Shown here: positions 16,354 to 35,086 of the stretch, one piece after another
Layout of the letters: every line of letters starts with the position of its first letter
How positions within the stretch are numbered: position 1 is the first letter of the stretch
Assembly: GCA_019915135.1 (NCBI GenBank)
Contig: JAHLMK010000011.1
Location: 1,550,001-1,614,000 of the forward strand
Direction of reading: 5' to 3'
Length of the DNA stretch: 64,000 bases
DNA from: Strobilurus pachycystidiatus
Taxonomy: Eukaryota > Basidiomycota > Agaricomycetes > Agaricales > Physalacriaceae
Notes under the pieces: model-generated
The model's input: the letters and a program-made list of their open reading frames with translations, nothing else
What the model was told of the DNA's origin: nothing
The model's database searches: none
Program-made: the position numbers and the translations under genes

Positions 16354-17147
16354 TTAAATAATACTGCACAAGACCCACTCGATATCGGCGACCGCAAATT
16401 CCCATTCCCCGCGGCTCAGCACGTCTTCTCCGCACGCCTCGCCCCACCACGCCAGGAAGGCGAGAACCGAAAGGTACCCATTGATCCCGCTCGTACGTAA
16501 CTTGCCCCAGTCTTGCCCAGCAGGATCGGGACGATGGATGTCACGGAACGGGACATCGCGAGCGGAGACCTGGCGCCATGCCGGTTGTATACTGGCCCAC
16601 CACGGCCAGAACTGGTCCGCCAGCGAGCGGGAAGGGAGGTGAGGACGATAGTCCTCGCGTCGAGCATTTTTGATCCAGTCCTGGATGGAGGGAGGGCGGA
16701 TGCGATTGGCGGGGATAGGCTTCCCTGAGCTGAATTGAAGCGCTTCTTCAGTCTTGACGTACGTCGAGAGAAGCCCCAACCACACGCCGCCAAGCGAGAA
16801 CGACTTCAGGTAGGCGCAGCCGTCTACAAGATACTCGGGATGTGCGGAGTTTGGTGCTGGTGAAGAGTCCGCGTCCGAAGACATAGACTGCGCGGGAGGA
16901 GCATGTGGGGGTGGACACGGAGAGGGAATGTTCAGGTTGGCGAATGGGTGCGGGGAATCGTTCGGCCCACAAGTCGGGACGAATGACAGCACTTCTGCAT
17001 TAGAAGCATCCATCAGAGCAGGGTCGATGTACGAGTTGGTGACATCTGTCAGAACAGCCCGAAGAGCAGCTGGGGCAGCGTCCTTGGAAGTAGGAACACT
17101 GCCGCGAGTGCGCGTGGAAGGTCCAGATGGCGCCGGGAGGTTTTCAA

Positions 17148-17179
<32 letters not shown>

Positions 17180-17370
17180 GCAGCGGCGGAGTCAACAGCA
17201 GGGGTTGTGGGAGAGGACTTCTTGCGCGGGTTCGTCGCCTTCGATGAGCGTTTACGTTTGGTGCGTTTCGTGGCGTCTTCGGATGGAGAAGGCGTGGTGG
17301 TCGGTTTGGAAACAGAGTCCGGGGACAAAGATTCAGCCGGTGGAACTGATGCCGGCTGCTGATGCCACGG
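16354..17370 (-). pseudogene. 3' part of large KDZ-element accessory gene, cut off by retrotransposon insertion
   Basis: This is the C-terminal portion of the gene whose 5' part lies at 33766-35086. It starts mid-exon (WHQQPASVPPAES), passes a Ser/Thr/Pro- and Lys-rich region with a ten-residue Asp run, and ends in a folded, Trp-rich region (FWPWWASIQPAWRQ, INGYLSVLAFLAWWGEA) with the stop at 16354-16356. Proteins of this plan, with a basic N-terminus and a W-rich C-terminal domain, form a large repeated family in Agaricomycetes; I know no function. The reading frame is intact on both sides of the insertion, so the break is recent. Confidence 0.75.
17148..17180. repeat. GTC trinucleotide microsatellite
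   Basis: About ten perfect CGT/GTC units encode a poly-aspartate run on the minus strand of the interrupted accessory gene. Confidence 0.85.
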
Positions 17371-19038
17371 TGATACGCAGGGTACTATTCCAGTACTAGA
17401 AACGGGGAATTTTGCGATTCCTGAACAGCCCAAAGACCTTAGGAACCTCCAGTCAAGTACTTAGGATAGAGCACGCAGGAGTTACTGCCTTGACGCGGGC
17501 AAGCCTCCAGGACAAGGTCCAGGCGCCTTAACAAGTCCTTTAGGACAGGCGCGATCGAAACCTTCGATCACCTTCATCCGAATACCCTTATCCGCGCGTT
17601 GGATCCCTTTCAAGATCCCGTACCTTTGCGTGTACCTTGTACTACAGACGATGTGCTATAACCATTCGCACCCAAGGAGGGTCCGAGGTCTCCAGGCGGT
17701 TCAGTTCGAGCGACCCAAGACCTGCGCACCTCAACCCAAAGACCTGGAAGGTCCCGAAATAGTTCAAGGACATCACAACCCTTTTGGGGAAACAATCTTC
17801 GGAGCTGTCAAGGACTCCGAACCGACGCCTTCCGCTATGCCGATCGATCATGATCCACGATCAAGGACCACCCCGAAAGCAGGGTGTATTACCACTTTAA
17901 GAAAGCACTCCCCTGTAGTGTCTGCGCTCGAAAGGACGTTCTTAACGATCTCCATCCAACCTATCCACAAGAAAGCAGGTGTCCGTAGGACCTTGCAACA
18001 TAAAGATACCTAAGGATCGAAGTCCTTATCGGACCTTGATCTCCTGGGCACAAGGATTGTACCATACCGCCAAGGTGGCGTATATGGCTAAAGGACCAAG
18101 CGGCCTGTCCGCAGTTGTTTCGACCAGGGATAGCCAATAAGAATCCAGTACTTGTATGACTCGAAAGTCCGATGTATCCGATCCTAGAATAGATGCTTAC
18201 TCAGCAGGAACCCACCAGTAGTATAAAAGGGCCCAAAGGACCCATATTTCGGGAGCTTAGAGCCCCCTCCAGTAGCCGCTAGTCAGACGCAGCCGTTGTA
18301 GTGAATCTATCTCGAGTTTCGACTCATTTCTGCAAAGTACCCAAAGACCCCAAAGACCTTTCCAAGATTTAAAGACATCAGGTGTTGCCAAACTCCTTGA
18401 AAGACTCGAAAGAACCTTATTCCGACGTACCAAGTCAAGTACCAACGAATCTACTTGGTGTTAGAACCTTGTATTCGCAAGAAGGCCGGTTTGCAAGTGG
18501 TTCTGCCCTGCACTCACGCTCTTTCGTGAAGTACTTCCCTTTGAGGGATAAGTCGAGTTTGAACGAGTGTTGTCAACGTCTGAGACACCTTTCGGAACCT
18601 TTGGTCCCGGTGCAAGACACTAGAAGTTTGGTTTAAGTGCAAGAAGGAGTCCTTATCGTTAGCAGTCCAGTGGCGTAAAACCTGCGGTAGCGGCCTGACG
18701 ATTCCAAGACAAAGTCCTTGTACACCAGAGCACTTGATAGGTAGAAGCTACATTGCCTCGCGCTGTTTAAGGTCTTCATACGTCAAGAGGTTCGGCCTAC
18801 GACTTCAAGGTTTTCTTGTGTCATTTCGATCAGAATCCCTACACCCCCAAAAACAACTCGTAGTTTAACTACAGCATTCGGAATACATCTCTATTTCTCC
18901 ATTACCCAAAAGCACCTTGTTCTCTCGAACCTTTGTGCACCCCATCTCCCTTACAAGGAGTGTTAGTTGTGATAAGGATTGATAGTGTGGTTAGACGATA
19001 GCTTCTTTTTCAGAGGTCTATTCCGAACTTGCACATCA
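17371..19038 (+). repeat. 5' LTR of the large retrotransposon
   Basis: It starts TGATACGCAGGG, ends CTTGCACATCA and measures 1,668 bp. Short AAGGACCTT-like words recur throughout. It contains a TATA box at 18222. Confidence 0.95.
18222..18228 (+). promoter_or_regulatory. LTR TATA box
   Basis: TATAAAA followed by GGGCCC lies mid-LTR; the twin is at 32949-32955 in the 3' LTR. Genomic RNA probably starts 25-35 bp downstream. Confidence 0.55.
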
Positions 19039-19043
19039 TATTT

Positions 19044-19061
19044 TGGAGCCCACCGCGAGGG
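19044..19061 (+). other. Candidate primer-binding site, tRNA-Cys-like
   Basis: TGGAGCCCACCGCGAGG begins 5 bp after the LTR. Its complement reads as a tRNA 3' end with CCA, a U discriminator base and a GTGGGC acceptor strand. A U discriminator points to tRNA-Cys, but I cannot compare it with this genome's tRNAs. Confidence 0.5.
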
Positions 19062-19616
19062 GGTGTAAATTTTGATTTCGAAAAAGACTTCTAAGTCGAC
19101 CTTGAGATCGGAATCTCCATAAAACAAAAGACACTGGCTGCAAGGAACTCTGGTCGTTACACCAACAGCCAGAACCGCGCAAATCCACAACCCCCAAAAG
19201 GAGACCCAGTTATTGCCGGATCTTCAAATCCAGCAACCTCTGGTATCACTAGTCGCCTAAGAAGCAATCGCCCAATCGCCGGCTCACTTTACAACGGTTT
19301 ACCTAGTGAAGTAGCTCAAGCACAGCGACGCTTTGCAGACCCGACTACTTCCAAGAACCAAAAGAAGAAACGTACGCAAGTACCACCTTCAACACCTACT
19401 GCCTCTAGGATCAGATCTTCTTCAGATCCTGAATCACCTTCGAGAACTCCAACCAGTACCCGAAGACATTCGGACTCTAGAACTTCGCCTAGTCCCGCAT
19501 TTGTGACACCTTTCGGAAGTCCTTTGACTGACCTTGAAGACCCCGAAAGTCCAGAACCTATTACCCCCTTCATTGACTTTAACACGTCTACCCAAAACAC
19601 GATACCAGTTCCAGTA

Positions 19617-20975
19617 ATGGCAGTACGAGCAATTGTACCTTCCGAGGAACTTAGTGCTGAAGCTAAGAAAGAGATCCAAGGCAAGAAGATTCCGATACCA
19701 TTCTCAAGGGATGCTCCCAAATTCAAGGGACACTCCGGCGATGATGTGAGGGAGTTCTTCACGATGTGCAACTGGATCTTTGACCAGACAGGAATCGCCG
19801 AACAAGGTACTAAGTTGGAAGTAGCCGCGCTATACGCCGGCCACGAACAACGCCTAAGGTGGCACAAAAACCCAGACTACTTGAAAGGTGTCTGGGCGGA
19901 CTTCCAAGAATCAGTTCTCTCCTCATACTCAAAGGGAAAGAACGATCCTACGTACGTCCCGGCCGACCTAAAGGATGCCTTGGACCCGTACCTGGCTAGG
20001 CCCATAGCCAACAAGCAAAAGTGGGAAAGCTTTCAGCGCGAAGTGCTCCATATCATGGGACATCTTATCACGTCGGGAGAACTTACCAATAAGGGTGCTA
20101 TAGAAGATATCAAGTCCTCTATCACAGAGGGAGTTTGGCATAATGTCCTTGGGGACCTCAGGCGCGATGCGAAAGCTAATGCAACAGCCGGGACAACCCC
20201 CACCTATGACTTCACGTTGTCAGAGGTCGAGGCAGCAATCTCCAACTACTTCTTGACCGATAAATGGATGAGCAAGAGTGCGAAGGATAGTCCTTATAAC
20301 AGAGAACTTATTCCCGCCTCTACCACCCGAATCAAGACAGAGGAGTTGGATGAATACCTGAATAGGGTAGCTAGCCTTCAGGATATTATCCAGAAAGGAG
20401 AAAAGGAACGCGAAGAGGCTCGCAAGGCCGATCAGAAGATGATGGCAGAACTTCTCCATACCTTACAGCGTGGAGGTCCGCAAGGACTCCGCACACAAGG
20501 TTTTGTACAAGAAGCCTCGCCGGTTTATCTACAAACACCTGCTCAAGGTGTCTCAGTCCCGACCAACTTACCGAACGGACTCTACAAAGCTCCTCCGGGC
20601 GCGTTCCCAGGAAACAAGTTCGTAGTTAACGATGGAAGGTGCTACTTCTGTCGCGAGCTAGGACACATTGTAGCAAATTGTCCGACAAAGGAAATGTGCG
20701 AAAGCAATGGTCATATCTACAAGCCTGGCGGTACCAACATATATCATGTAACGAATGGAACTACTAGTCAACCTATTCAAAGGGTTAGTCCCAAGCAGCC
20801 TCTCAGCCCTTGGGAACAAGTTCAGAAGTTTCAACAAGAAAATGCACCTAAGGTATCGGCGTTCCAATCTCAAGAAGATGAGTTCGCACCTGAGGTCGCG
20901 ATGTATGTTCAAACCCCAACCCAAGAAGAAGAGTTTGCCCCCGACGCCTATCAGGGTTTCGGCAGGGCTCGATGA
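19617..20975 (+). CDS. gag: Gag capsid/nucleocapsid protein
   Basis: A structural protein that packages the retrotransposon RNA. The first in-frame ATG is 19617 (MAVRAIVPSEEL), but the frame is open back to about 19093, so a longer product is possible. The capsid-like region holds FSRDAPKFKGHSGDDVREFF and DFQESVLSSYSKG. A charged coiled-coil region lies near 20345-20450. A CCHC zinc knuckle (C-YF-C-RELG-H-IVAN-C) at 20641-20682 is the nucleic-acid-binding part. The stop TGA 20973-20975 overlaps the next ATG as ATGA. A GGGTTTC heptamer at 20954-20960 sits five codons before the stop. Confidence 0.88.
   Translation: MAVRAIVPSEELSAEAKKEIQGKKIPIPFSRDAPKFKGHSGDDVREFFTMCNWIFDQTGIAEQGTKLEVAALYAGHEQRLRWHKNPDYLKGVWADFQESVLSSYSKGKNDPTYVPADLKDALDPYLARPIANKQKWESFQREVLHIMGHLITSGELTNKGAIEDIKSSITEGVWHNVLGDLRRDAKANATAGTTPTYDFTLSEVEAAISNYFLTDKWMSKSAKDSPYNRELIPASTTRIKTEELDEYLNRVASLQDIIQKGEKEREEARKADQKMMAELLHTLQRGGPQGLRTQGFVQEASPVYLQTPAQGVSVPTNLPNGLYKAPPGAFPGNKFVVNDGRCYFCRELGHIVANCPTKEMCESNGHIYKPGGTNIYHVTNGTTSQPIQRVSPKQPLSPWEQVQKFQQENAPKVSAFQSQEDEFAPEVAMYVQTPTQEEEFAPDAYQGFGRAR
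20954..20960 (+). promoter_or_regulatory. Predicted -1 frameshift site, gag to protease
   Basis: G GGT TTC fits the X XXY YYZ slippery pattern and is in register with the gag codons (GGT 20955-20957, TTC 20958-20960). After a -1 slip the protease frame continues open. The ATGA overlap at 20972-20975 offers reinitiation as an alternative route. Confidence 0.5.
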
Positions 20976-22144
20976 AGGAAGGAGTGCAGTTAGCACATAC
21001 TCCTCCGGAGAGCCAGTTCACTGTAGAAACTCGTCAAACTCGTCAGAGTACAAAAGCACCTAGTGCACCTTTGGATTCAACTCCACAAAAGAAGGTAACC
21101 TCATGGCCTAAGGACCGGGTGTCCGTGGTCATTCCAAAAGCAGCACCGCCTAAGGTATCATTCTCCAAGCCGGAAGTCACTCAAGAAGTAGAACCTGTTG
21201 ACCAGGAACTTCTTGACGAAGTCCTGGCGATGGAAGAACCAGACCCGGTGCCGCAACCAAAAGCAGATTCAACTCTGCCAGAAAAGAACCAACCAAAGGT
21301 TCAACCTAAGGAACCTAAGGTCAAGAGTTTCCAACGTCGTAGCCTGGCAGAAGAACTCTTGCACAAGAATCCCAGTTGGCGTGAAGCCTGGAAATTCTTG
21401 TTACCCGAAGCCCTACTAGCTACCAACCCCCCTTGGCAGCAGAGCATTTCGGACTTCATCAGGAAACGCAACACGCCGGTGGCTGTATTCAAAACGGAAG
21501 TAGTGGCCGAAACGGTCCAGGATCACTTCCAACCCGAGCTATATTCAGTCAACTTTCATGAACAAGGTGATTTACCTATTGGTGGGATTGTAGTCCACGA
21601 TGCGGTAGAACAGTTTGTAAACCTTTCCGGAGGTCACTATACTGGTCCCTTTCAAATGATAAGTGGCAATATGGCGCCGGAAAATGCAGATCTACGAACC
21701 TTTTGGCCCTTGATCAACAAGAATGGCAAAAAGGAGAGTTTAGTGGATGGTGGATCGCAGATCGCCTCCATTTCGCTCAAGGCAGCTTTGGAATTAGGAA
21801 TAGCCTACGATCCCACTTTCACCATTACGATGGAAAGTGCGGACAAGGGACGAACCAGTACCTTGGGATTGGCTCGTAACATACCTTTTGACTTTGAAGG
21901 TATTGTCTATTACCTTCAGCTGCATGTGTTGCAGGATCCCGCCTATGAGGTCCTACTGGGACGACCTTTCGAGATCGTTTCAAACCTGGTCATCACCAAC
22001 CTTCCCAACGGGAACGCAATCGGAACCCTTACGGATAACACCAATGGGAAGAAGTTATCGCTACCTTCTTACCGTCGAGGACAAATCCCAAGACATATGA
22101 TTCCAGGGGGACAGACGGGTTTTCACGGGAACCTAAGGACGTAG
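20960..22144 (+). CDS. pro: Retropepsin-like aspartic protease domain (Pro)
   Basis: It cleaves the polyprotein. The frame is -1 relative to gag; the first ATG is 20972, but entry by frameshift at 20954-20960 is favoured. The first 220 residues are Lys/Pro/Glu-rich linker. The protease fold follows with the active-site Asp at 21746-21748 in LVDGGSQIASIS and the second signature VLLGRPFEI near 21955. The active-site triplet is D-G-G rather than the usual D-S-G or D-T-G, a deviation worth noting in a frame that is otherwise intact. It ends at TAG 22142-22144, with a second slippery heptamer seven codons earlier. Confidence 0.8.
   Translation, partial: RQGSMKEGVQLAHTPPESQFTVETRQTRQSTKAPSAPLDSTPQKKVTSWPKDRVSVVIPKAAPPKVSFSKPEVTQEVEPVDQELLDEVLAMEEPDPVPQPKADSTLPEKNQPKVQPKEPKVKSFQRRSLAEELLHKNPSWREAWKFLLPEALLATNPPWQQSISDFIRKRNTPVAVFKTEVVAETVQDHFQPELYSVNFHEQGDLPIGGIVVHDAVEQFVNLSGGHYTGPFQMISGNMAPENADLRTFWPLINKNGKKESLVDGGSQIASISLKAALELGIAYDPTFTITMESADKGRTSTLGLARNIPFDFEGIVYYLQLHVLQDPAYEVLLGRPFEIVSNLVITNLPNGNAIGTLTDNTNGKKLSLPSYRRGQIPRHMIPGGQTGFHGNLRT
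22117..22123 (+). promoter_or_regulatory. Predicted -1 frameshift site, protease to pol
   Basis: G GGT TTT fits X XXY YYZ and is in register with the protease codons (GGT 22118-22120, TTT 22121-22123). A -1 slip moves directly into the pol frame, which is open from here (TCA CGG GAA...). No in-frame ATG opens pol nearby. Confidence 0.6.
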
Positions 22145-25100
22145 GAAATTCCTATGAAGAAGCCGTGTTGATCCTTGAAAGGTCACCAGAAGGAAACATC
22201 GAAGTAAAGCAAAGTTGGATACCTGGTGATAACAGGGAGACCTTCGGGGAAGGGGACTTAACGTCCTTATACATGAAGAAGTCACCCAATAGGGTTCATC
22301 AGGCAGCCAAAAGGCTAAGGAAGCAACACGCCTTCATGCATGCATCGATGCACCAAGCATCGACACATATGACAGTCCCAGAACATATGGTGACACCTAC
22401 GGGACTATTAAAGGTCCCAACCAAGACTCAAGGCTTTCGCAAGGTATTCAATATCAACCAGATTGCGGAAGACCAAGAAGAACTTAAGTCCTACGCTACT
22501 GCGACTTTGAATCTCTTCTATGGGGTACCAAAGGAGCTAGAACAAGTCTTTACGGGCTTGTCGGTAACCTTACCAAAGGATTACATGGCGGAGGCCCAAC
22601 AGGAGTTCCTAAGGTTGGAAAGTCAGATCCCTAAGAGGGGTGTATTCGTAGGAAAGAAGTACAAACCAGTAGCCTTGAAAACCAAAGCTCACCTTGGAAC
22701 CTTACCGGAAGAATTCAGGATCAAGCGCCACATTCATGGAGACCCACTAGCTGGGATGCCGGAATTAGTACCTGATCCACCACCCTTCGTACCCACAGGT
22801 AGGTATACTGCCGAAAGGAGGGAACAGATACAAGCCGACCACGTCGGGGACTTCCTGACGGATGCAGAAAGACGGATTATAGACTCCATCTTCTGTAAAC
22901 AGAACGAAGGCTTTGCCTGGGAAGAATCTGAGAAAGGACACTTCAAACCAGAGTTCTTTCCACCAGTGGATATCCCGGTAATACCGCACACACCTTGGGT
23001 GTTGAGGAATATACCAATTCCACCAGGAATCTATGACGAAGTCTGTAAGATTATCAAGCACAAACTAGACTCGGGCGTGTATGAGCCTTCGAACTCCTCA
23101 TACCGCTCCAGGTGGTTCTGTGTTGTTAAGAAGGATGGAAAGAAACTTCGCCTAGTGCACAGTCTGGAACCACTCAATGCGGTGACCATTGCGCACTCAG
23201 GGTTACCTCCAGCCACGGAGGAACTAGCGGAGTCCTTTGCAGGACGAAGTTGTGGAGGGACCTTGGATCTGTTCGTTGGATATGACGAACGGCTCCTTGC
23301 CACCGCGTCTCGCGATATGACAACCTTCTCGACACCTTACGGAGCGTTAAGGTTAAAGACCTTACCAATGGGCTGGACTAATTCAGTACCTATCTTTCAT
23401 GACGATGTTACAACGATTCTCAAGGATGAAATACCAGCCTTTACCAGACCTTATATCGACGATGTGCCCGTCCGCGGACCCGCTACGCGATATGAACAAG
23501 CTGATGGCACCTACGAAACGCTTCCAGGTCATCCTGAAGTAAGGCGTTTCGTTTGGGAACACCTTGTGAACATGAACAGGATCATACAGCGAATGAAACA
23601 TGCCGGAGGGACCTTTTCTGGTCACAAGGCTATCATTTGTGCAGAAGAGATTGTGGTAGTGGGACATGTCTGTACCTACGAAGGTAGAAAGCCAGCTGAA
23701 GATCGCGTTAAGGTGATCTCGGATTGGCCCCCTTGTAAAGCGCTCACGGAAGTCCGTTCGTTCTTAGGAACAGCTGGAATCTTCAGAGCATTTGTAAAGG
23801 ACTACTCTAAGAAGGCGTTACCTTTGACCAGGTTAACCAAAGACATTACTAAGTTCAGATGGACAGACGAGGAGCAGGAAAGTATGGATACCTTAAAGGA
23901 AGCCATACGAACTTGTCCGATGCTGAAACCACTGAATTATGAATGGTCCACGCCAATCACACTGTCGGTAGACACCTCTTACCAGGCAGTAGGTTTCTAT
24001 CTGTCCCAGGTAGATCCCAAGGACCCTAAGAAACGATATTTTGCGAAGTTTATGTCTCTGACCTTGAACGAAAGAGAGGCAAGGTACTCGCAAGCCAAGC
24101 GAGAACTATTCGGGCTCTTCAGAGCTCTGTCCGCGTGCAAGTACTACCTTCTAGGGTGTAGGAAACTAGAAATTGAAGTAGATGCAAAATACATCAAAGG
24201 CATGTTATCAAACGTGGACTCCTTAGCGAACGCAAACCTGCAAAGGTGGGCTGAGGAGATCTTGATGTACCACTTCACGCTTGTACACGTACCAGGAAAG
24301 GTCCATGGCCCGGATGGCTTGAGTCGCCGTCCAGCTTCAGAGCATGATGTAGTAGTACCCAGACCTCATATAAACATAGAGGATGACGAAGTCAATACCT
24401 TTGAGTACCAGGAGCCCAAGGGTCTGCCTATAGAAAAGCAACCTTTGGACTTTGACACTTTCCGGAATGACATCGACAGTAGGGGAGGCTACTTCCAAGA
24501 AATAGTGCGGAGTCCTTTACCAGACCATATAAAGGTTTCTAAAGCGGTAAGGACTTCGGGACTAGTCAATGTTAAGGATATCGAAGGTTGGATGCATATC
24601 ACGGAGTTCCCGGAGCTCAATAAGAGCAAAAGGGAGCGTTTGTGGGAGACCTATTTGCCCAAACTTCAACCTTACTTACAATCGGAAGATGTACTTGAGG
24701 ACGAAGACTTGGAGAAATGGAGCAAAGACTTCTTTGTCCAGCATGAAAGGTTATACCGAAACCATTCGGACTCCCACCCCCGTCGAGTGCTACTTCCAAA
24801 TGAACGAATCCCGGTTTGTAAAGCTCTACACGACCGGGCAGGACATAAAGGACAATATTCCGTGTTACAACTCATCATGAAGCGATTCTGGTGGCCAGGT
24901 ATGGAGGTCGACATACGATGGTATGTAAGGACTTGCGTACTATGCCAGAAACGCCAGAAACGTAACATAAAGGTTGCACCAACAATTACTTCGACTCCAG
25001 GTATCTACGAAAGGGCTTATATAGACACCTTCCGGATGCCTAAGGCAGGAGAGGAATCTATTCGAAAGAAACGACCTTCAAAATGGGCCGGCTTCAATGC

Positions 25101-26010
25101 TGTGACCGTCGCAAGGTGTGGATTAACAAGTTGGCCAGAGGCAAGGGCTCTCAAGGAAGAGACCGCCGAGTCGCTGGGAGAATGGATCTTCGAGGACATT
25201 CTATGCAGGTGGGGTTGTATCAAGGAAATTGTAACCGACAATGGGCCAGCAATCAAGAAGGCTTTAGTACATATTGAACAGAAATATGGTATTACAGGTA
25301 TCTTGATCACGGCGTACAATAAGCAAGCCAACGGAAAGGTTGAACGAGGACACTGGGATATCCGTCAATCTCTCTTCAAGGTATGCAGGGGTAAACCCGA
25401 GCAATGGCCAGAGTTCCTACATGAGGTCCTTTGGGCAGAGCGCATTACCATAAAGAGGAGTCTAGGTACTTCAGCGTTCCAGGCAGTAACCGGTTGTGAA
25501 CCAATCATGCCAATGGACCTGGAGGAATTGACTTGGCTGGTCGAAGCACCAGGCCGACTGGTCTCCCATTCGGACCTTATTGCCTTCCGAGCTAGGCAGC
25601 TCATCAAGCACAAAGAAGATACTGTCAAGCTAAGGTCAAAGGTCCTTCTAAATAAACAGAAGGCCGCAGCGAAGTTCCTAGAGGATTTCCAGAACAGTAT
25701 CCCTCGCTACAAATTCAAAACTGGTGAACTAGTACTAGTAAGAAACACTAGGATCGAATCAGAAATGAATGCGAAGTTCAAGGAAAGGTTTATGGGACCT
25801 TACGCGGTAGTAACAAGGACCTCGGCAGGAAACTATGTGGTCTGCGAGTTGGACGGGACGATCTACAAAGACAAGATAGCTCAGTTCCGTGTAATACCTT
25901 TTGTATCGCGACGAGATCCTATAGACCTTGGGAAACAGTTTTTTGATCGGCTACACTTCATAAGTAAACCGATCACGAAGACCTTAGATGTCCTTGCTAA
26001 AACTACGTGA
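22123..26010 (+). CDS. pol: Pol: reverse transcriptase, RNase H and integrase
   Basis: It copies element RNA into DNA and integrates it. Order: linker; reverse transcriptase with KKDGKKLRLVHSLEPLN, LPMGWTNS and the catalytic YIDD at 23452-23463; RNase H of the Ty3/Gypsy tether type (SVDTSYQAVGFYL, later VHGPDGLSRRP); integrase with an HHCC zinc site (HDRAGHKG ... CVLCQKR, about 24828-24960) and a D,D-E core (Asp in AYIDTFR near 25024, Asp in VTDNGP near 25235, Glu in NGKVERGH at 25342-25344); then a GPY/F-like module (FMGPYAVV). The RT-RNaseH-IN order puts it in the Ty3/Gypsy (Metaviridae) class. No stop or frameshift is seen in 1,290 codons. The stop is TGA 26008-26010. Confidence 0.95.
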   Translation, partial: SREPKDVGNSYEEAVLILERSPEGNIEVKQSWIPGDNRETFGEGDLTSLYMKKSPNRVHQAAKRLRKQHAFMHASMHQASTHMTVPEHMVTPTGLLKVPTKTQGFRKVFNINQIAEDQEELKSYATATLNLFYGVPKELEQVFTGLSVTLPKDYMAEAQQEFLRLESQIPKRGVFVGKKYKPVALKTKAHLGTLPEEFRIKRHIHGDPLAGMPELVPDPPPFVPTGRYTAERREQIQADHVGDFLTDAERRIIDSIFCKQNEGFAWEESEKGHFKPEFFPPVDIPVIPHTPWVLRNIPIPPGIYDEVCKIIKHKLDSGVYEPSNSSYRSRWFCVVKKDGKKLRLVHSLEPLNAVTIAHSGLPPATEELAESFAGRSCGGTLDLFVGYDERLLATASRDMTTFSTPYGALRLKTLPMGWTNSVPIFHDDVTTILKDEIPAFTRPYIDDVPVRGPATRYEQADGTYETLPGHPEVRRFVWEHLVNMNRIIQRMKHAGGTFSGHKAIICAEEIVVVGHVCTYEGRKPAEDRVKVISDWPPCKALTEVRSFLGTAGIFRAFVKDYSKKALPLTRLTKDITKFRWTDEEQESMDTLKEAIRTCPMLKPLNYEWSTPITLSVDTSYQAVGFYLSQVDPKDPKKRYFAKFMSLTLNEREARYSQAKRELFGLFRALSACKYYLLGCRKLEIEVDAKYIKGMLSNVDSLANANLQRWAEEILMYHFTLVHVPGKVHGPDGLSRRPASEHDVVVPRPHINIEDDEVNTFEYQEPKGLPIEKQPLDFDTFRNDIDSRGGYFQEIVRSPLPDHIKVSKAVRTSGLVNVKDIEGWMHITEFPELNKSKRERLWETYLPKLQPYLQSEDVLEDEDLEKWSKDFFVQHERLYRNHSDSHPRRVLLPNERIPVCKALHDRAGHKGQYSVLQLIMKRFWWPGMEVDIRWYVRTCVLCQKRQKRNIKVAPTITSTPGIYERAYIDTFRMPKAGEESIRKKRPSKWAGFNAVTVARCGLTSWPEARALKEETAESLGEWIFEDILCRWGCIKEIVTDNGPAIKKALVHIEQKYGITGILITAYNKQANGKVERGHWDIRQSLFKVCRGKPEQWPEFLHEVLWAERITIKRSLGTSAFQAVTGCEPIMPMDLEELTWLVEAPGRLVSHSDLIAFRARQLIKHKEDTVKLRSKVLLNKQKAAAKFLEDFQNSIPRYKFKTGELVLVRNTRIESEMNAKFKERFMGPYAVVTRTSAGNYVVCELDGTIYKDKIAQFRVIPFVSRRDPIDLGKQFFDRLHFISKPITKTLDVLAKTT

Positions 26011-26342
26011 CCTTGAGTACCCAGAAATGAACCAAAGGTTCTAAGAAAGCCAAGGTACCATACCAGATGACGGGGACGTCATCAGAAAAGTAAAGAGAGA
26101 ATAGAGGGACACCGGTCCATTTATTCAAAGACTATAAAATTTTTATTTAAGACTTATTCTGTGCCCAGCTGGCTACAATAGTAGCTAAGGTAGCTGTGAA
26201 CTAAGAACAGAATAAGGAAACAAGACAAGGCACGAGGCATCAGGGAAGTGGCGGGGTGCGAACCAAGAAAGCTTAAAGGTGATGAAGCCGTAAAGTGATG
26301 TGGTAAGCGCAAAAAGGAAGCACCACACACCGAACCACCACC

Positions 26343-28466
26343 ATGACAATGCCCACAAGCTCGCCCCAAGATACCGAGCGCAAGGAGGACGCGAAGGTAA
26401 GCAACCAACGCGATCAGCGCCAGGGCGGCAGACGAACTTACTTACCAAAAGGAGCAGTCGCCGCCGCCGCCGCCAACGTCGCCACAAGGACATCAGGAGC
26501 CTCCCGCAGCTCAGGAGGAAGGGGAAAAAGAGGCGCTAGCGCAGGAACAGGTGAGTGACGGGCAACGACGCGTAAAAATGCGAGAACGCTCACCCCGACC
26601 ACTTTCTCGCGCTAGCCCCCACCCATCGCCTGTGAAGCTAGGCCCGACCACGTCAAAATGACCCGTCCCCTGTTTAACTACAGCGGCTTCCTCACCAACA
26701 TGACCGCACCACCGGAGCTGGACGCAGGGATCAGTCTGCGCCTGGCCGAGTCTTTGTGTGCCAAACCGCCGTCAACGCGGGACATCCTGAACGAGGCCGG
26801 CTACAAGGGGTATCTCCGTAACGGAGTCTTCTGGTTGACCTTCCAGGACGCGCTCGAATCGACCCCAGCGGGCAAGGCCACTCCGCTGGAACGCGTCGAG
26901 ATGGCGCTGAGCGCCGCGTGGCGCGACAACACGTCCTACCGGAGGCAGGTCCGCCCGGTTCATGAAATCACCTTCCTAGACAACGACCGCATCGCCCCCG
27001 AGCTCGCGATCCGGCTTTCAGAAGACGACGCCCAGCGTTGTTTTCTGGAGCTGGATCACCTCTGGAACTTTGTGCACGACCAGGACCGGGCTAATTTATT
27101 CTGGGGCGCGCTGCTCGTAGAAATGCGAAGACAGCGCGACGGGACCGCCATCCAAGGAACGTTCTACAAAACCATGGACAACCTGATCGAGAGCGCGATA
27201 ACCAAGCTCGGGATTACCAACTACGAACGCGATGGGACGCCCAGCCTCGACAGCAAGGTCGAGGACGAGGATACGCCGCGCCCCACGATGCAGGAGATCG
27301 CGAAGGAAGAGTCGCCCAGTCCTCGCGACTCGCGAACGCCGTCCCCGGCGCCCTCCTCGCACCATGAACCCACGCCCAAGCCCGAGGCAGAACCCCCCAA
27401 GCGCAAGCCGTACGTCGCGGCGAGCAAAGGAGGTCCCAAGTCGACCACCAAGTACGTCCGCCGCACCCTCGCGCCGCTAACGTTTGCTGACGCTCCGACA
27501 AGGCCGAAGGCCGTCGCAATAAAAGTGGAACCCAAGGACAAGGACGTCGCCCCCGCTAGGAAAACCTCAGTCGCGCGCGCCACTACTGGTGGAAGCCAGA
27601 AGCGCAAGTTCGTCGAGGAGGAACCGGAGGAGGTGGACGAGCTGGAAGAAGACGCCGAAGCCAGCGCCGAGGAGGAGGACGACTTCGTCCTCGACGTGCG
27701 CGACAAAACCAACCCGCGCATCCCCCTCCACCGCGACGACGGGGTCTGCGTCCCCTGCATCAAGCAGCGGTTGACGTGCACTTACTTCCGGATCCACGCC
27801 ACGCCCGCGGAGAAGAATAACAGCTTCACCTGCGACCAGTGCAAGGAGAAGGACGGGCAGCACGGTCCGTGCTGGGTCGCGTGGAGGCGAGGACAGGTCC
27901 CCGAGCCGTGGAAGGAGGTCGCGTTGAAGGTCCGCGCCCAGTTGCAGGCTGTGGCAAGGAACAAGCCCGACTCTCAGATCCGGGCCCGGCGCCACCAGGA
28001 CTACTCCGACGCCGCGCAAGCTATCGCCAAGGAAGCGGACCAGCGGTGGAAGGAGGAGAAGCAGCGGAAGAAGGACGAGCCCGCGGCGAAACGTCGTCGC
28101 GTCGAGAGCGCCGCCGGGAAGAAGGGCAAGGCCAAGAAGGAAGAGACGTCGGACGAAGAGGGAACCGGCGACTCCGACGTCGAGGAAATCCAAGCGCCCC
28201 GCACCCGCCTCCAGAAGGGAAAGGTCAGCACCGCCCCGCCGCCCGCCTCGACCAAGTCCTCGAAGGGAGCCGCCACGTCAATCAGCGCGGTCCAACGCCA
28301 GGACAAAGGCGAAGGAGCCAGCCGTCAAGGTGCGACGTCCTCCGCCTCCACCAGCCGCGTCGACCCCGCCGAGGACGTGGACAAGGTCCTGGCGCTGTAC
28401 TTCTCCCTGAGTGAGAAGAGCCGGAGAAAATTCAGGAAGATCGCCGAGATAGCGGTAGGACGTTAG
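26343..28466 (+). CDS. Extra gene 1 of the retrotransposon: Zn-cluster-like, GC-rich protein
   Basis: Sense-strand gene after pol. The long exon runs from 26616 (ATG at 26658) to TAG 28464-28466. Two upstream exons, 26343-26396 (MTMPTSSPQDTERKEDAK) and 26452-26550, join it in phase through introns with GTAAGC and GTGAGT donors. About 667 residues in all. Residues after MTRPLFNYSGF look globular and helical; a Ser/Pro/Lys-rich linker follows. Then comes a cysteine motif CVPCIKQRLTC, a spacer and CDQCKEKDGQHGPC, resembling the paired zinc knuckles of basidiomycete transposon proteins. The end is highly charged with a coiled-coil stretch. GC content is clearly higher than in pol, which suggests a separate origin. 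The function is unknown; nucleic-acid binding is likely. Confidence 0.65.
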
Positions 28467-28854
28467 TAGCGTCCCGCCGCTATGTTTTTCTTTATATGTA
28501 CATGCAAGCTAGTCACAGTGCCGAAATGGACACTTTCATATACGCATCCCCCCGCCCCCGTTGTAATGTACGCAAAAATTACAACTTCTTGTACCTAAAG
28601 CACCGTGTGAAAACATTAAGGAAGCAAGAACGAGGGACCTTAGTTGGAACCTTTAAGTCAAGGGGAGGGCCCAGGACCCTCCCTGGAATCTCAAAGGTAG
28701 CAAAGGTCAGAGGATGGGAACCTTAGACGATAGAAAGGTCCACAAGGAACTGCGTTGCAAGTAAAGTAATACAGACAAAGCAATGTGACTATAAGGAACA
28801 TTCGTAAGGAAGAAAAGAAAAGAGACCTTTAGGTCAAAAGAAGTCAACTAAGGA
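28467..28854. other. Spacer between convergent extra genes 1 and 3
   Basis: No gene is seen. It holds the 3' ends of the plus-strand and minus-strand genes and several AAGGACCTT-like words that also occur in the LTR. Confidence 0.5.
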
Positions 28855-29991
28855 CTAAGCAAAACGACTCCAATCAGGAGGGACCGCGAGGTTCGCAAGG
28901 CGCGCATAGAAAGGTCCTGCGTGGCTAAGGTCGATTGCTAACATACTAGCAGCAAGGAGTTCGTAGTCTACTTCGGTGGCCTCCGACCAGTCGATGAGCC
29001 AGAGTAGTGGATCGATGATAGGCAGCGACTGGTTGGGGCGCTGGAAACACAGAAGTTACAAACGGACCTCAAACTACGAAGTTGTTCACGGACCCGATTG
29101 GCGGGAAGGTCAATCTCAGGGATCAACCGACGCATATTGGGAGGTCTATCCAACGCGTAGACGTCGTCCCAGCCATAAAGAGCAGAGTTCTGACGCTGGA
29201 ACTCTGGCCACCACTTCATAACCGTGACAAGGTCGGCAGGAAGGTCCCCATACTGGACAGGAAGGACCTTCAGGTCGTCAGACCCGATGTAAAGCGAGCG
29301 AAGGAGTGTGGAAAAGCCGGAGTAACCACCAAAGTGGGCCTCGACCTACTCATAAGGTCAGCGCCGACCACAAGACATGAAAGGAAGAAACCAGGTTTAA
29401 CTCACCATGAAAGGTCCGATGAACTCTTGGGTAAACCAAGGGTGACTCGCAAGGATGTCCATGTTCAGGTTCCCCAGGTGGAAGCGGGCGCCTTCACCGT
29501 CAAAGGTATTGCCTTCGGCGAACCAAGCTTTGCAAAGTTCGACGGCGGTGTAGTACAAAGGAAAGAAGTGCGCCTTGAAACCGTGAGGAATGGCCCCGTT
29601 CTGGAAGTGAAAAGCGGGTTCCCAGATATAACGAAAGCGGGCCTAAGTACCATCCGTTAAACGAGAAAGGTGTCGAGACAAAATCAACTGGACTGACCAG
29701 AACGTGCAAAAGATAGCGCAAGGTTGGGACGTCTAGAGGTTCGTCGCGCCCAAAGGCATGAACCGGAGGCTTGAGCTGGGGAAGGAGGCGAGTGTCGTCC
29801 TCCGTAGCTAAGGTCCCATCCGGATGACGGACTACCGCAACGAAGTAGCGTGTATAGTTATACATCTCCATGGCGCAGCTCAGTGCAAGGTCCGCTGTGA
29901 CTAAGTCATGTTGAAAGGAGGTCAACGGCGAGCGAAGTCGAACGCCTTGAATGCGCGTATCTGCAAAGGAAGGCAGGACGGGTGCGGGCAT
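28855..29991 (-). CDS. Extra gene 3 of the retrotransposon: antisense, intron-containing, unknown
   Basis: ATG 29989-29991 gives MPAPVLPSFADTRIQGVRL. Four introns with GT and AG ends leave one open frame: exons contain YNYTRYFVAVVRHPDG, then AHFFPLYYTAVELCKAWFAE, then EAHFGGYSGFSTLLRSLYIG and VMKWWPEFQRQNSALYGWDD, and finally PIIDPLLWLIDWSEATEVDY, ending at TAG 28855-28857. About 290 residues, rich in aromatic residues, probably one globular domain, with no signal peptide. I recognise no family. The introns are legible only on the minus strand, so sense genomic RNA would carry them through reverse transcription unspliced. Confidence 0.62.
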
Positions 29992-30110
29992 GATCAAAGA
30001 TGAGATTCCTGTCCCCAGGACCGACTTAAAAGAGGACCCCTCGTCAGTCTAAGGTCCGAACGAACCGATAAAATGCAAAGTTTAGGCGCCACCTATCTAA
30101 AGGTAGGTAC

Positions 30111-30143
30111 GATCGGCGATAGCCGATCGAACTAAGTTCGATC
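30111..30143. other. Two overlapping perfect hairpins between the antisense genes
   Basis: 30111-30128 forms a 7-bp stem (GATCGGC/GCCGATC) with loop GATA. 30125-30143 is a 19-bp perfect palindrome around one base (GATCGAACT-A-AGTTCGATC). They share the GATC at 30125-30128, so the two folds compete. A weaker outer stem pairs GGTAGG (about 30102) with CCTACC (about 30149). The location is the gap between antisense genes 2 and 3; a terminator, a promoter operator or an RNA signal of the element are all possible. Confidence 0.5.
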
Positions 30144-30364
30144 TTAGGCCTACCAGGAGGCGGTCAGGAAACTTTGAGGGTTCAAATCGAAAGGAGTTGG
30201 ATTATGCACCAACTGGGCCTAGAGTAGTCTAAGGAAACAAAGTGACTACCGCTCCTACAAGTAGAGAAGAAATCCGAAACCAGTATAAAGACGAAGTAGA
30301 GAAAAACTATGAGTAGTACTGGTTAAGACTTGGCGAAAGCTAAGCTAAAGAAGGACCTTGTAGT

Positions 30365-31899
30365 CTACTGAGCCTGGTCAATCGCGTCTAAGGCCGAGAT
30401 ATAAAGGTCGCGAGTCGACTGCAAGACTTGGATACGACCCCGAATCTCGTTGAAGGTCGAGATAATGTCGTGCCGGTACTGGCGTTCCAAAATGACCAAG
30501 TTGGGCGAGATGTTGGGATCGTCAAGACCAGACAACCTTGACATACGCTTGTGGACTTGGGCCAAGGCAGCAGACAGACCATTGATGTACTGGTTCGCTA
30601 AGGGGAAGTAACCAGGAATCAACAAGGCAAACCAAGAAGCGAGGAAGAAGCACCTTACCGCCTTCAAGTTGTTTAAGAACGACGGGTTCGACTCCAAAGG
30701 TCGAAGGCCGGGCCGCCTTTACGACACGGCGAGCGTTCTCATCGTTAAGCTTACGCTTAGGAGGAGCTTCTTGACCATTGATCGCGCCCAAGGTTTGAAG
30801 GGCTTTCTGGTAAACACGGGCGTTAATGTCCATACCGGGAAGAGCTGCGAAAGGAAGGTAACGGACGGAAGATGACTATTAAAGAAGTCATAAGAACGTC
30901 CGGGACAAACATAGGATTCAAAGGAACGTACCGCTTCGGCTTCCTTTGACAAGGAATTGGCGAGTTGGAGCTGGCGAAAGGCTTCAATAAAGGAAGATGA
31001 GACTGGCAAAGAAATTGAGCGCACAGTATCACCGACGACGACAACGGAGTCCTCACCGTCGCTCTCGCCAGCTGCCACATCGTCAGCCCAATTAAAGTAC
31101 TCCGGACGAAAGAAGCGCGCACAAGAGTCGGGATCCATCGCGACGTCGCCGTCTCCCGTCTCGGCTCGTTTCTCCATGGCCTCGGTAACGACCTCGGGCG
31201 ATTTCTTCGTCTTCTAAGCGAAGACATCCAGAGGTTACAGTAGGAAACCGACGAGTAACAAACGGACATACCTTGCCTTTCTCAAGCTTGTCCGGCTTGA
31301 AATAAGCGTTATCCGGATGCATAGGGTGACCCGGGGACAGGCCAGGGAAGTGGGCGTTAGACGCCTTCTTGCAGCTGCTCACCAAAGGTTGGAGGATATG
31401 AGCGATGTGGTGCGTCGGCGTCTGAGGGTGAATCCCCAGCAGGTGTACCAGCATCCCTACATAGAGGCGAAGGTTGAAAAAGAACACCGCCATGTCCGTC
31501 GACACCTTGGAACCATTCGGAAAGGTGCGAAGGTCATGGGCGACGGCCTAAAGAAAACAAGGACAGGATGAAGTCAGGATCAGGAAAAGAACACAGCGAA
31601 GGAGTACACACAAGGACTCTCTCCATGATCTTGTCAACATAGCCGGTGATCTCCAGTGCCACGTCGGGATTCGAACACGCCTTCTTGAGGTCCAGACGAT
31701 GGACCTTGGGAATGATGAGCGTAAGATGCATGCCGAGGTACATAAGGAAGTCGGGTGTGTTGGCTGGAGGGTCGTAGTCGAGCGCATAAGCAACGAGACC
31801 GGCGCCAAGGTCGCGCGTAGTGATCAGGTCCTTCGCGGACGGAACGTGCGGCGTTGTGGGAAGCAGTTTTGCGATGGGGGTCCAAGTTTTGGGAGCCAT
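30365..31899 (-). CDS. Extra gene 2 of the retrotransposon: antisense, intron-containing, C-terminal coiled coil
   Basis: ATG 31897-31899 gives MAPKTWTPIAKLLPTTPHVP. About five introns with GT and AG ends join exons containing DFLMYLGMHLTLIIPKVHRL; DMAVFFFNLRLYVGMLVHLL; DPDSCARFFRPEYFNWADDV; INARVYQKALQTLGAINGQE; and NQYINGLSAALAQVHKRM through to a helical end, ISALDAIDQAQ, with TAG at 30365-30367. About 460 residues. The last exon is predicted coiled coil. A TATA box lies 47 bp upstream. The family is unknown. With gene 3 it forms a same-strand pair at the 3' end of the element, the place where env-like or accessory genes sit in retroviruses, but in the opposite orientation. Confidence 0.65.
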
Positions 31900-31945
31900 G
31901 ATAGGATAAAGGCAGGAATGAAAGGTCTGAGGACAAGTCCCAGAA

Positions 31946-31954
31946 CCTTTTATA
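31946..31954 (-). promoter_or_regulatory. TATA box for antisense gene 2
   Basis: TATAAAAGG on the minus strand, about 47 bp before the ATG at 31899 and about 145 bp inside the 3' LTR. It indicates a dedicated antisense promoter. Confidence 0.5.
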
Positions 31955-32088
31955 ACGGAACGAAGTTAGGCAAAAGAGGGTCCATCGGGCGATAGAAACC
32001 AAAAGGGGACTTCGTCACGGCGGCCTGGTACCCAGGATAAAGGTTTTGAACCACCAAGGACTATGTCGCGGACGACATTTCATAAGTC

Positions 32089-32097
32089 AAGGGGAGA
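32089..32097 (+). other. Polypurine tract
   Basis: AAGGGGAGA abuts the 3' LTR directly and is the expected plus-strand DNA priming site. Confidence 0.7.
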
Positions 32098-33765
32098 TGA
32101 TACGCAGGGTACTATTCCAGTACTAGAAACGGGGAATTTTGCGATTCCTGAACAGCCCAAAGACCTTAGGAACCTCCAGTCAAGTACTTAGGATAGAGCA
32201 CGCAGGAGTTACTGCCTTGACGCGGGCAAGCCTCCAGGACAAGGTCCAGGCGCCTTAACAAGTCCTTTAGGACAGGCGCGATCGAAACCTTCGATCACCT
32301 TCATCCGAATACCCTTATCCGCGCGTTGGATCCCTTTCAAGATCCCGTACCTTTGCGTGTACCTTGTACTACAGACGATGTGCTATAACCATTCGCACCC
32401 AAGGAGGGTCCGAGGTCTCCAGGCGGTTCAGTTCGAGCGACCCAAGACCTGCGCACCTCAACCCAAAGACCTGGAAGGTCCCGAAATAGTTCAAGGACAT
32501 CACAACCCTTTTGGGGAAACAATCTTCGGAGCTGTCAAGGACTCCGAACCGACGCCTTCCGCTATGCCGATCGATCATGATCCACGATCAAGGACCACCC
32601 CGAAAGCAGGGTGTATTACCACTTTAAGAAAGCACTCCCCTGTAGTGTCTGCGCTCGAAAGGACGTTCTTAACGATCTCCATCCAACCTATCCACAAGAA
32701 AGCAGGTGTCCGTAGGACCTTGCAACATAAAGATACCTAAGGATCGAAGTCCTTATCGGACCTTGATCTCCTGGGCACAAGGATTGTACCATACCGCCAA
32801 GGTGGCGTATATGGCTAAAGGACCAAGCGGCCTGTCCGCAGTTGTTTCGACCAGGGATAGCCAATAAGAATCCAGTACTTGTATGACTCGAAAGTCCGAT
32901 GTATCCGATCCTAGAATAGATGCTTACTCAGCAGGAACCCACCAGTAGTATAAAAGGGCCCAAAGGACCCATATTTCGGGAGCTTAGAGCCCCCTCCAGT
33001 AGCCGCTAGTCAGACGCAGCCGTTGTAGTGAATCTATCTCGAGTTTCGACTCATTTCTGCAAAGTACCCAAAGACCCCAAAGACCTTTCCAAGATTTAAA
33101 GACATCAGGTGTTGCCAAACTCCTTGAAAGACTCGAAAGAACCTTATTCCGACGTACCAAGTCAAGTACCAACGAATCTACTTGGTGTTAGAACCTTGTA
33201 TTCGCAAGAAGGCCGGTTTGCAAGTGGTTCTGCCCTGCACTCACGCTCTTTCGTGAAGTACTTCCCTTTGAGGGATAAGTCGAGTTTGAACGAGTGTTGT
33301 CAACGTCTGAGACACCTTTCGGAACCTTTGGTCCCGGTGCAAGACACTAGAAGTTTGGTTTAAGTGCAAGAAGGAGTCCTTATCGTTAGCAGTCCAGTGG
33401 CGTAAAACCTGCGGTAGCGGCCTGACGATTCCAAGACAAAGTCCTTGTACACCAGAGCACTTGATAGGTAGAAGCTACATTGCCTCGCGCTGTTTAAGGT
33501 CTTCATACGTCAAGAGGTTCGGCCTACGACTTCAAGGTTTTCTTGTGTCATTTCGATCAGAATCCCTACACCCCCAAAAACAACTCGTAGTTTAACTACA
33601 GCATTCGGAATACATCTCTATTTCTCCATTACCCAAAAGCACCTTGTTCTCTCGAACCTTTGTGCACCCCATCTCCCTTACAAGGAGTGTTAGTTGTGAT
33701 AAGGATTGATAGTGTGGTTAGACGATAGCTTCTTTTTCAGAGGTCTATTCCGAACTTGCACATCA
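32098..33765 (+). repeat. 3' LTR of the large retrotransposon
   Basis: Same length as the 5' LTR with no difference seen. It is followed by ACGG (33766-33769), the target duplication. Confidence 0.95.
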
Positions 33766-35086
33766 ACGGGTTTGGCTGTCGCACAAACCAGGGGAGCGTG
33801 TTGGGCATATCTAAGTCAGGCAAGGAGCGCGCGCGTTGTTGGTCGTAAGCTGGGTGATTTATTAGAGAACATATGAAGCAAATAAGACAGAAATAAGACT
33901 TACAAAAGCACGACATGCCAAATTCACCTATGGCAGCCTCGTACGTCTTGAACCGACGCTTGCCGACGTCACCATCTGCTTCGTGGAAGCTCTTCGGGGC
34001 TGGGGCGGAATTTGTACCGACGTTGATCCTATGTAAATAAATTAATCAGACCAATGAAAGTGCCATGCGAGAAACAACGTACGTGATGACATTTACTTGC
34101 CCACCTTTTCGGGGTTCGGGACCGCACCACGAAAAGGCGATGTTTCCTCCCAGGACCGTAGACAAGCCTTCCAGGAGGGGCTGAAGCGTACCAGCGAGCG
34201 AGTCTAGGGCGCTAAATAAAGGCTCGTGTCAGTGTCAATGTCAGATTTCGGAAGCGAAGACATTACGCTTGCGTTTCCTCGGGTGATAACAATTGAAGTT
34301 GTTCCTGAGCTGTCGCTTTGGCAGCAGCGACGTCGAGGGCATCCTGTTTGGCGCGTTGCTTCCAGAGTGTTTGTTCGGAGGCCGGAAGTTGTTCCCAGAC
34401 TTCACTCGCGTAGCTAGCGACCTCGTTGATTCGGCCCCTCCGCGCGTCCTTGCCCGTTTCGACGAACTCTTCATCAAACTCTTTCTTGATCGATGGGAAA
34501 CCTTCCTTCATCCACAGCTGCATCGCAGTACGAGCGCGTTTACGTGTAATGTCGAATCCGGCAACTTTGCAGAGAATGGCAGCGATGGGATCCTTGCCAA
34601 CTTGAGCTTTCGACATTTTGGCGACGGGAGTAGCCTTGGACCAACGCGTCTCGTAATAGTTCCGTATACCCTGATAGAAAAGACGCGTCAGACAAGCCTG
34701 TAAATACGGAAATGACGCACTGTAGAGAGCCTATCCAACAGTGCACGCTTCCGATCGCGTTCCGACGAAGAAAGTTCTGAGTCAGAAGGAGATGTCGGCA
34801 GGATGGCAGGAGGCTCCTGATCCATGGGGAGATCCCAAGGGAATTTGACACACATTGCGTTGAAGATGGTGTCCGCGTATTCTGTCGCTTGAGACTTGCC
34901 CTTGCGACGCGCCGCGATGTAGCCGTCCATGCCGTCTTCGAGCATTGATTTGCGACCGCCCTTGGCCCATCCGCGACGAAAGGGTTGAACGGTATTGGGA
35001 TCAAAAGCAGGGGTGGGAGTGAGCCTGGAAAAAGTTTAAGCGACGCGTGGAAAGAGCCGGAAAATCACGTACTCGGGGGCCGACAT
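33766..35086 (-). pseudogene. 5' part of large KDZ-element accessory gene, cut off by retrotransposon insertion
   Basis: Starts at ATG 35084-35086 (MSAPE, then an intron). Exons encode a basic region (FRRGWAKGGRKSMLEDGMDG), AMCVKFPWDLPMDQEPP, an HMG-box-like helical stretch (EVASYASEVWEQLPASEQTL) and ALDSLAGTLQPLLEGLSTVL, with introns near 34715, 34240, 34060 and 33870. The last exon ends LPWFVRQPNP exactly at the ACGG target site. The frame continues in phase at 17370 on the other side of the retrotransposon (WHQQPASV). The whole gene would encode roughly 750-800 residues. The HMG-like reading and proposed role in DNA or chromatin binding are inference. Confidence 0.72.

Follow-up and report, generated by a model that had tools for sequence, protein, structure and literature searches.

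A stretch of 64,000 nucleotides from the genome of Strobilurus pachycystidiatus (contig JAHLMK010000011.1, positions 1,550,001 to 1,614,000; termed the window below, with positions counted from its first nucleotide) contains at 17371–33765 a complete Ty3/gypsy-type long terminal repeat (LTR) retrotransposon of about 16 kb, and this element carries two antisense genes, A and B, whose reading frames and seven predicted introns are conserved across two families of elements. By analogy with the plant elements Retand and Grande and with the HBZ gene of human T-cell leukemia virus type 1 (HTLV-1), we consider it probable that A and B encode trans-acting accessory proteins, most plausibly regulatory ones, expressed from antisense promoters of the element itself.

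Structure and Conservation of the Antisense Genes

Gene A (28855–29991, minus strand) is predicted to encode 322 amino acids in four exons (29991–29698, 29642–29406, 29345–29094, and 29040–28855), separated by three GT-AG introns of 55, 60, and 53 nt; gene B (30365–31899, minus strand) is predicted to encode 431 amino acids in five exons (31899–31612, 31547–31272, 31213–30932, 30875–30659, and 30597–30365), with four introns of 64, 58, 56, and 61 nt. Together with the sense-strand gene ORF3, these are the three extra genes past pol named in a preliminary description of this DNA, which gave the limits of A and B exactly; the four to five introns that it assigned to each gene have to be lowered to three for A and four for B. 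Upstream of B lies a TATA-like sequence, TTATAAAAGG (31946–31955, minus strand), with TATAAA about 55 nt before the ATG.

In the genome (51.8 Mb in 61 contigs), the region of A and B has at least 42 DNA matches with 40 of the 99 candidates scored, comprising 32 near full-length and 10 partial ones; other copies do hold the extra genes, so that the first refuting outcome named in the preliminary description did not arise. Our set of copies comprises 30 of the 32 near full-length matches, including that of the window. Gene A is open with correct splice sites in all 30 and gene B in 29, the exception being L030, where 28 nt are missing from exon 3 of B and the frame is broken. All introns have retained their GT-AG ends (90/90 in A and 120/120 in B, 210 in total), and each of the nine exons is of constant length in the 30 copies, the one exception again being exon 3 of B in L030; intron 1 of either gene differs in length among copies. 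TATAAA precedes the ATG of B in every copy, at 55 nt in 29 and at 50 nt in one. Retroelements usually lack introns, since passage through a spliced RNA removes them. The antisense introns would go unrecognized on the sense RNA and so be copied anew in every round of retrotransposition; their survival, suggested in the preliminary description, is seen in the retention of all seven in each of the 30 copies, with gag, pro, pol, and ORF3 on the sense strand being intronless.

Sequence variation among the copies indicates that the frames of A and B are under purifying selection rather than evolving neutrally, neutral evolution being an outcome that the preliminary description had named as refuting. 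Changes are concentrated at third codon positions: Variable sites at positions 1, 2, and 3 number 33, 13, and 62 in A (chi-square P = 5e-8) and 20, 9, and 70 in B (P = 1e-14), and the corresponding per-site diversities are 0.014, 0.005, and 0.045 for A and 0.006, 0.001, and 0.024 for B. The ratio of nonsynonymous to synonymous polymorphism (pN/pS) amounts to 0.149 in A, from 435 pairs among 30 copies, and to 0.088 in B, from 406 pairs among 29 copies with L030 excluded. When the exons of A and B were read in all six frames, internal stops were present on average in all five frames other than the modeled one; one plus-strand frame with coinciding wobble positions also gave low ratios (0.175 and 0.119), yet it holds 15–21 stops on average.

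Exon 3 of A, for which all 60 of 60 candidates were scored, has 59 matches genome-wide: 39 belong to the family of the window's element (family 1), 19 are 55–58% identical, and one is decayed. All but one of the 59 (58/59) are without a stop, and judged by identity no further, more distant group was found among them.

A second family was approached through three loci (L034, L035, and L036) picked by hand from ORF3 matches at 36–42% identity, all of which hold antisense matches to A and B, with L036 lacking the start of B. In L034, the order and the strands of ORF3, A, and B agree with those of family 1, the protein identities are 49% for A and 63% for B, and all intron positions of family 1 (3/3 in A and 4/4 in B) match in place and phase. 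Gene B of L034 has an additional intron of 56 nt (4581–4636, minus strand) that is coding sequence in family 1, which would represent either an intron gain or an exonization. TATAAAA lies ahead of both A and B in L034. Between the families, nonsynonymous divergence (dN) of B is 0.29 and synonymous divergence (dS) 1.45, and pS of A is saturated at 0.78. Among the sense proteins, identity between the families is 68% for a part of Gag, 74% for Pro, and 69% for the start of Pol, and this range of 68–74% indicates that ORF3 and A evolve faster.

It should be noted that A and B are not present in all copies. Three loci on three contigs (L037–L039) have one deletion in common, from about 28909 to about 31806, by which A and B are gone except for end pieces. 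The copy on C3 has two LTRs and equal target duplications, and the other two loci adjoin Pol frames free of stops. An element without A and B has moved, and the genes are thus not needed in cis; they are either supplied in trans or dispensable.

ORF3, Polypurine Tracts, and the Remainder of the Element

The sense extra gene, ORF3 (26658–28466, plus strand), is intronless and has 602 codons from the first ATG; it has no match in Pfam. Two loci hold relatives at 36% and 34% identity, which have six cysteines in common, spaced C-X2-C-X6-C-Xn-C-X2-C-X9-C. We take this spacing to resemble the fungal Zn2Cys6 cluster, although the Pfam Zn_clus model reaches an E-value of just 0.39, in one relative. 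A structure predicted without an alignment for the cysteine region (mean pLDDT 43.5) was too poor for use. An envelope function was considered and rejected for ORF3, whose best 19-residue hydropathy is 0.49, with no membrane-like stretch by hydropathy only.

The history of ORF3 is separate from that of the antisense block. The ORF3 proteins of L034 (115–1992) and L035 (53–1915) are only 33% identical, whereas the DNA of these loci is 96.5% identical from just past ORF3 through the end of the stretch, including A and B. Within family 1, ORF3 occurs in types of about 95% and about 85% identity to that of the window, whereas the DNA of the A and B region is 95–100% identical across the 32 near full-length copies. 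ORF3 is thus exchanged as one unit. One family 1 copy (G000:C7:1380213) has a Pol whose identity rounds to 100% and an ORF3 at 85%.

The polypurine tract (PPT) at the 3' end (AAGTCAAGGGGAGA, 32084–32097, plus strand) abuts the 3' LTR. Its 13-nt core (32084–32096, AAGTCAAGGGGAG) occurs only once more in the window, between ORF3 and A (28655–28667, plus strand). This internal copy is present in all 33 family 1 loci (the 30 copies and the three deletion forms), and in two of the three family 2 loci, those that hold both ends, AAGTCAAGAGGAG stands at either place, with L036 holding the internal one only; from one family to the other, the internal tract and the 3' PPT have thus changed alike. The internal tract is an addition to the preliminary description. 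It lies within an invariant run of 15 nt, one of the two longest in the otherwise variable spacer between ORF3 and A, the other being AATTACAACTTCTTG at 28577–28591. Similarity stops within a few bases of the internal tract, so that the tract looks like a retained second plus-strand start or like the trace of a former 3' end. Second plus-strand starts occur in lentiviruses and in Ty1.

The other parts of a complete Ty3/gypsy-type element, as claimed in the preliminary description, were all found. The 5' LTR (17371–19038, plus strand) and the 3' LTR (32098–33765, plus strand) are 1,668 bp each, have TG..CA ends, and are identical in sequence, and the insertion is flanked by target site duplications ACGG (17367–17370 and 33766–33769); we take it to be a multi-copy retrotransposon that inserted recently at this site. 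Five bases past the 5' LTR lies a primer binding site (PBS) of 18 nt (19044–19061, plus strand), perfectly complementary to the 15 terminal bases of a tRNA gene followed by CCA. This tRNA end was found in three of four loci excised from 14 pattern matches and is read here as that of an intron-bearing tRNA-Lys, the ARAGORN labels being "Stop" and "???" with the third locus uncalled.

Three frames without introns encode the sense proteins: gag (19095–20975, first ATG at 19617), with a zinc knuckle below the Pfam cut-off; the protease frame (20894–22144), with a weak aspartyl protease match (E = 0.017); and pol (22039–26010), with reverse transcriptase (RT), RNase H, and integrase from Pfam and PDB matches, all on the plus strand. 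The best PDB match of Pol is Ty3 Gag-Pol (E = 1.2e-37), from which its closeness to Ty3 is taken, and the prototype foamy virus (PFV) integrase matches at E = 2.2e-8. The RNase H and integrase zinc-binding domains are matched in Pfam, and the general RT and integrase-core models of Pfam gave no match at E-values up to 1. The domain order along pol, RT-RNase H followed by integrase, is that of Ty3/gypsy. Slippery heptamers for a -1 shift lie in the overlaps of gag and pro (G GGU UUC, 20954–20960, in the gag frame) and of pro and pol (G GGU UUU, 22117–22123, in the pro frame), both on the plus strand and correctly phased; they are identical in 8/8 other copies and occur in the same frames in the family 2 locus L088 (701 and 1867). 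No significant stem-loops were found 3' of the two sites (folding z-scores of -0.99 and -0.75). Two successive -1 shifts are known from some retroviruses.

Integration shows a preference for CpG-centered sites. Equal 4-bp duplications flank 12 of 14 further LTR pairs, and among the 15 pairs examined including that of the window (L040–L067), matching duplications have a central CG in 13/13 and are followed by G in 11/13. When the empty site is reconstructed by joining 16354–17370 to the sequence from 33770 onward, a minus-strand ORF of 430 codons stays open, and the insertion may thus sit in a host gene. Elsewhere, an LTR at G000:C3:1168947–1170616 is directly adjoined on its outside by a PBS sequence in reverse orientation, so that two copies seem to have one LTR in common in a tandem arrangement. 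Outside the element, the window holds a KDZ transposase match in two pieces (8870–9646, minus strand; C11:1558870–1559646), one of at least 174 such matches in the genome with 150 of 249 candidates scored. This abundance, like the shortness of the introns, suggests that the host is a mushroom-forming basidiomycete. Neither ARAGORN nor Rfam detected RNA genes in the window.

Function and Origin of the Antisense Genes

In the model that we propose, a genome-length RNA would span the element from LTR to LTR and give rise to Gag, Pro, and Pol via the two -1 shifts, with ORF3 probably made from a separate message. Genes A and B would be genuine protein-coding genes that belong to the element and lie on its opposite strand, most likely transcribed by the host RNA polymerase II from internal minus-strand promoters and then spliced; the TATA sequences before B in family 1 and before both genes in L034 make promoters of their own likely. 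Their products would most likely act in trans, controlling the expression, the RNA, or the integration of the element. The preliminary description called them functional antisense passengers; "passengers" is an understatement, as conservation across two families marks them as probable accessory genes belonging to the element.

Several observations weigh against this reading. The 30 copies were those with the best scores, a choice biased toward intact copies, and that A and B are transcribed and spliced is a prediction from sequence. In family 1 no TATA-like word lies within 290 nt of the ATG of A. Copies without A and B have moved, so that the genes could be dispensable. Neither protein has a homolog in Pfam (E-values up to 5 for spliced A and B), PHROGs, or the PDB sequences, where the matches are at chance level (E = 0.3 or worse), and no relative of B was found in collections of viral and prokaryote sequences; because A and B have no detectable homolog, a regulatory role is argued by analogy. 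Comparisons with hhalign found no distant kinship for the pairs A–B, A–ORF3, B–Gag, and A–Gag. One 19-residue stretch of B reaches a hydropathy of 1.74, and B may contain a membrane segment.

If A and B were captured host genes, serving the host as cargo or hitch-hiking, this would fit with their multi-intron build, which resembles that of ordinary nuclear genes, with their being unlike known retroelement proteins, and with the movement of elements that lack them. However, the matches of A exon 3 form two multi-copy groups and one decayed relative by identity, with no lone diverged paralog, and the same location in two families in which A and B are 49–63% identical argues for a long residence; a cargo origin is in our estimation unlikely. 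We see even less room for an action of the antisense transcripts chiefly as RNA, pairing with the sense RNA and damping the element with coding as a secondary matter: Both genes lie entirely opposite the 3' portion of the genomic RNA and the TATA sequences hint at minus-strand transcription, but a pure RNA function needs neither open frames nor the codon-position pattern.

The two PPTs bound the block of A and B and could mark an old junction, as expected if the block were a separate mobile element once inserted into the LTR element, foreign and neutral. We consider this very improbable, given the lack of inverted repeats at least 25 nt long within 15500–36000 and of a transposase match, the strong purifying selection, and the presence of the block in two families; an old fusion is possible as the origin of the block, not as a neutral insert. 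A nested transposon was rejected for the same lack of long inverted repeats and of a transposase match. GT-AG pairs are easily spotted in any sequence, and introns and frames might be a wishful reading of noncoding DNA; with 7/7 intron positions recurring at 49–63% protein identity and the frames kept in 30/30 (A) and 29/30 (B) copies, this is hardly conceivable.

A more specific form of the accessory-gene reading is put forward tentatively, as possible rather than likely. Here, a fungal lineage would have evolved, independently of plants and retroviruses, a dedicated antisense module of two genes that have promoters of their own and contain spliceosomal introns. Its location between two working PPTs would cause it to be synthesized also as a separate plus-strand DNA segment, its proteins would control the element in trans, and copies without the module would persist on the products of others.

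Comparison with Known Antisense Genes

HBZ of HTLV-1 is a spliced gene transcribed from the 3' LTR. Its features of an antisense gene close to the 3' end, independent of the sense transcript and acting in trans, are those to which we liken A and B; HBZ differs in being a single gene driven by the 3' LTR, and the present element is without a visible env. An antisense-gene plan is already known for LTR elements, and A and B match none of the families searched. In the plant Ty3/gypsy elements Retand, Grande, and RIRE2, the region from pol to the 3' LTR contains antisense genes, 97% of Retand clusters encode TRP28 (PF04195), and the antisense gene of Grande is said to encode a nuclear protein and, according to the title of a paper cited there, has its own promoter (PMC11963269, in the excerpts drawn on here, which also mention HBZ and related antisense retroviral genes). 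The resemblance to Retand comprises the Ty3/gypsy order, a long region between pol and the 3' LTR, conserved antisense genes, and defective relatives that are also mobile (PMC11963269). In contrast to the plant hosts and the TRP28 of Retand, the host here is a fungus (11 hydrophobin matches in this genome and none in 14 control genomes), and TRP28 was not found in spliced A or B at E-values up to 5, nor did their separate pieces match it. The text of PMC11963269 does not contain the term "intron", whereas seven introns are predicted here in two antisense genes that show no kinship to each other; the present element further differs from Retand in the extra sense gene ORF3 and the internal PPT copy.

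The LTR retrotransposons of bdelloid rotifers also carry extra genes past pol, although the ORF3 types there are enzymatic (GDSL and DEDDy), "intron" does not occur in that text either, and their extra ORFs, unlike A and B, show no significant departure from neutrality within genomes (PMC5408684). The extra ORFs of plant elements have been sorted by place and orientation, reverse included, according to the part of PMC6317226 used here. Fungal Ty3/gypsy elements have LTRs, gag-pol, and the superfamily in common with the present element (PMC3248453, PMC3411680, and PMC4905642, in excerpt); "antisense" has no occurrence in the texts of these three papers, and PMC3248453, in the excerpts, mentions complex transposons with domains added by multiple insertions, not antisense genes. 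A limited literature search, drawing on partial texts, found no fungal element of the same plan, which is not proof of absence; the earlier statement that none had been described holds to this extent for fungi, but the plan as such is known from plant LTR elements (PMC11963269).

The seven introns kept while the families diverged to 49–63% identity make this element a clean natural experiment on how the survival of introns depends on their strand. The findings suggest independent origins of antisense accessory genes in fungi, plants, and deltaretroviruses, and the presence of module-bearing and module-less insertions side by side offers a defined setting in which the purpose of such genes can be probed.

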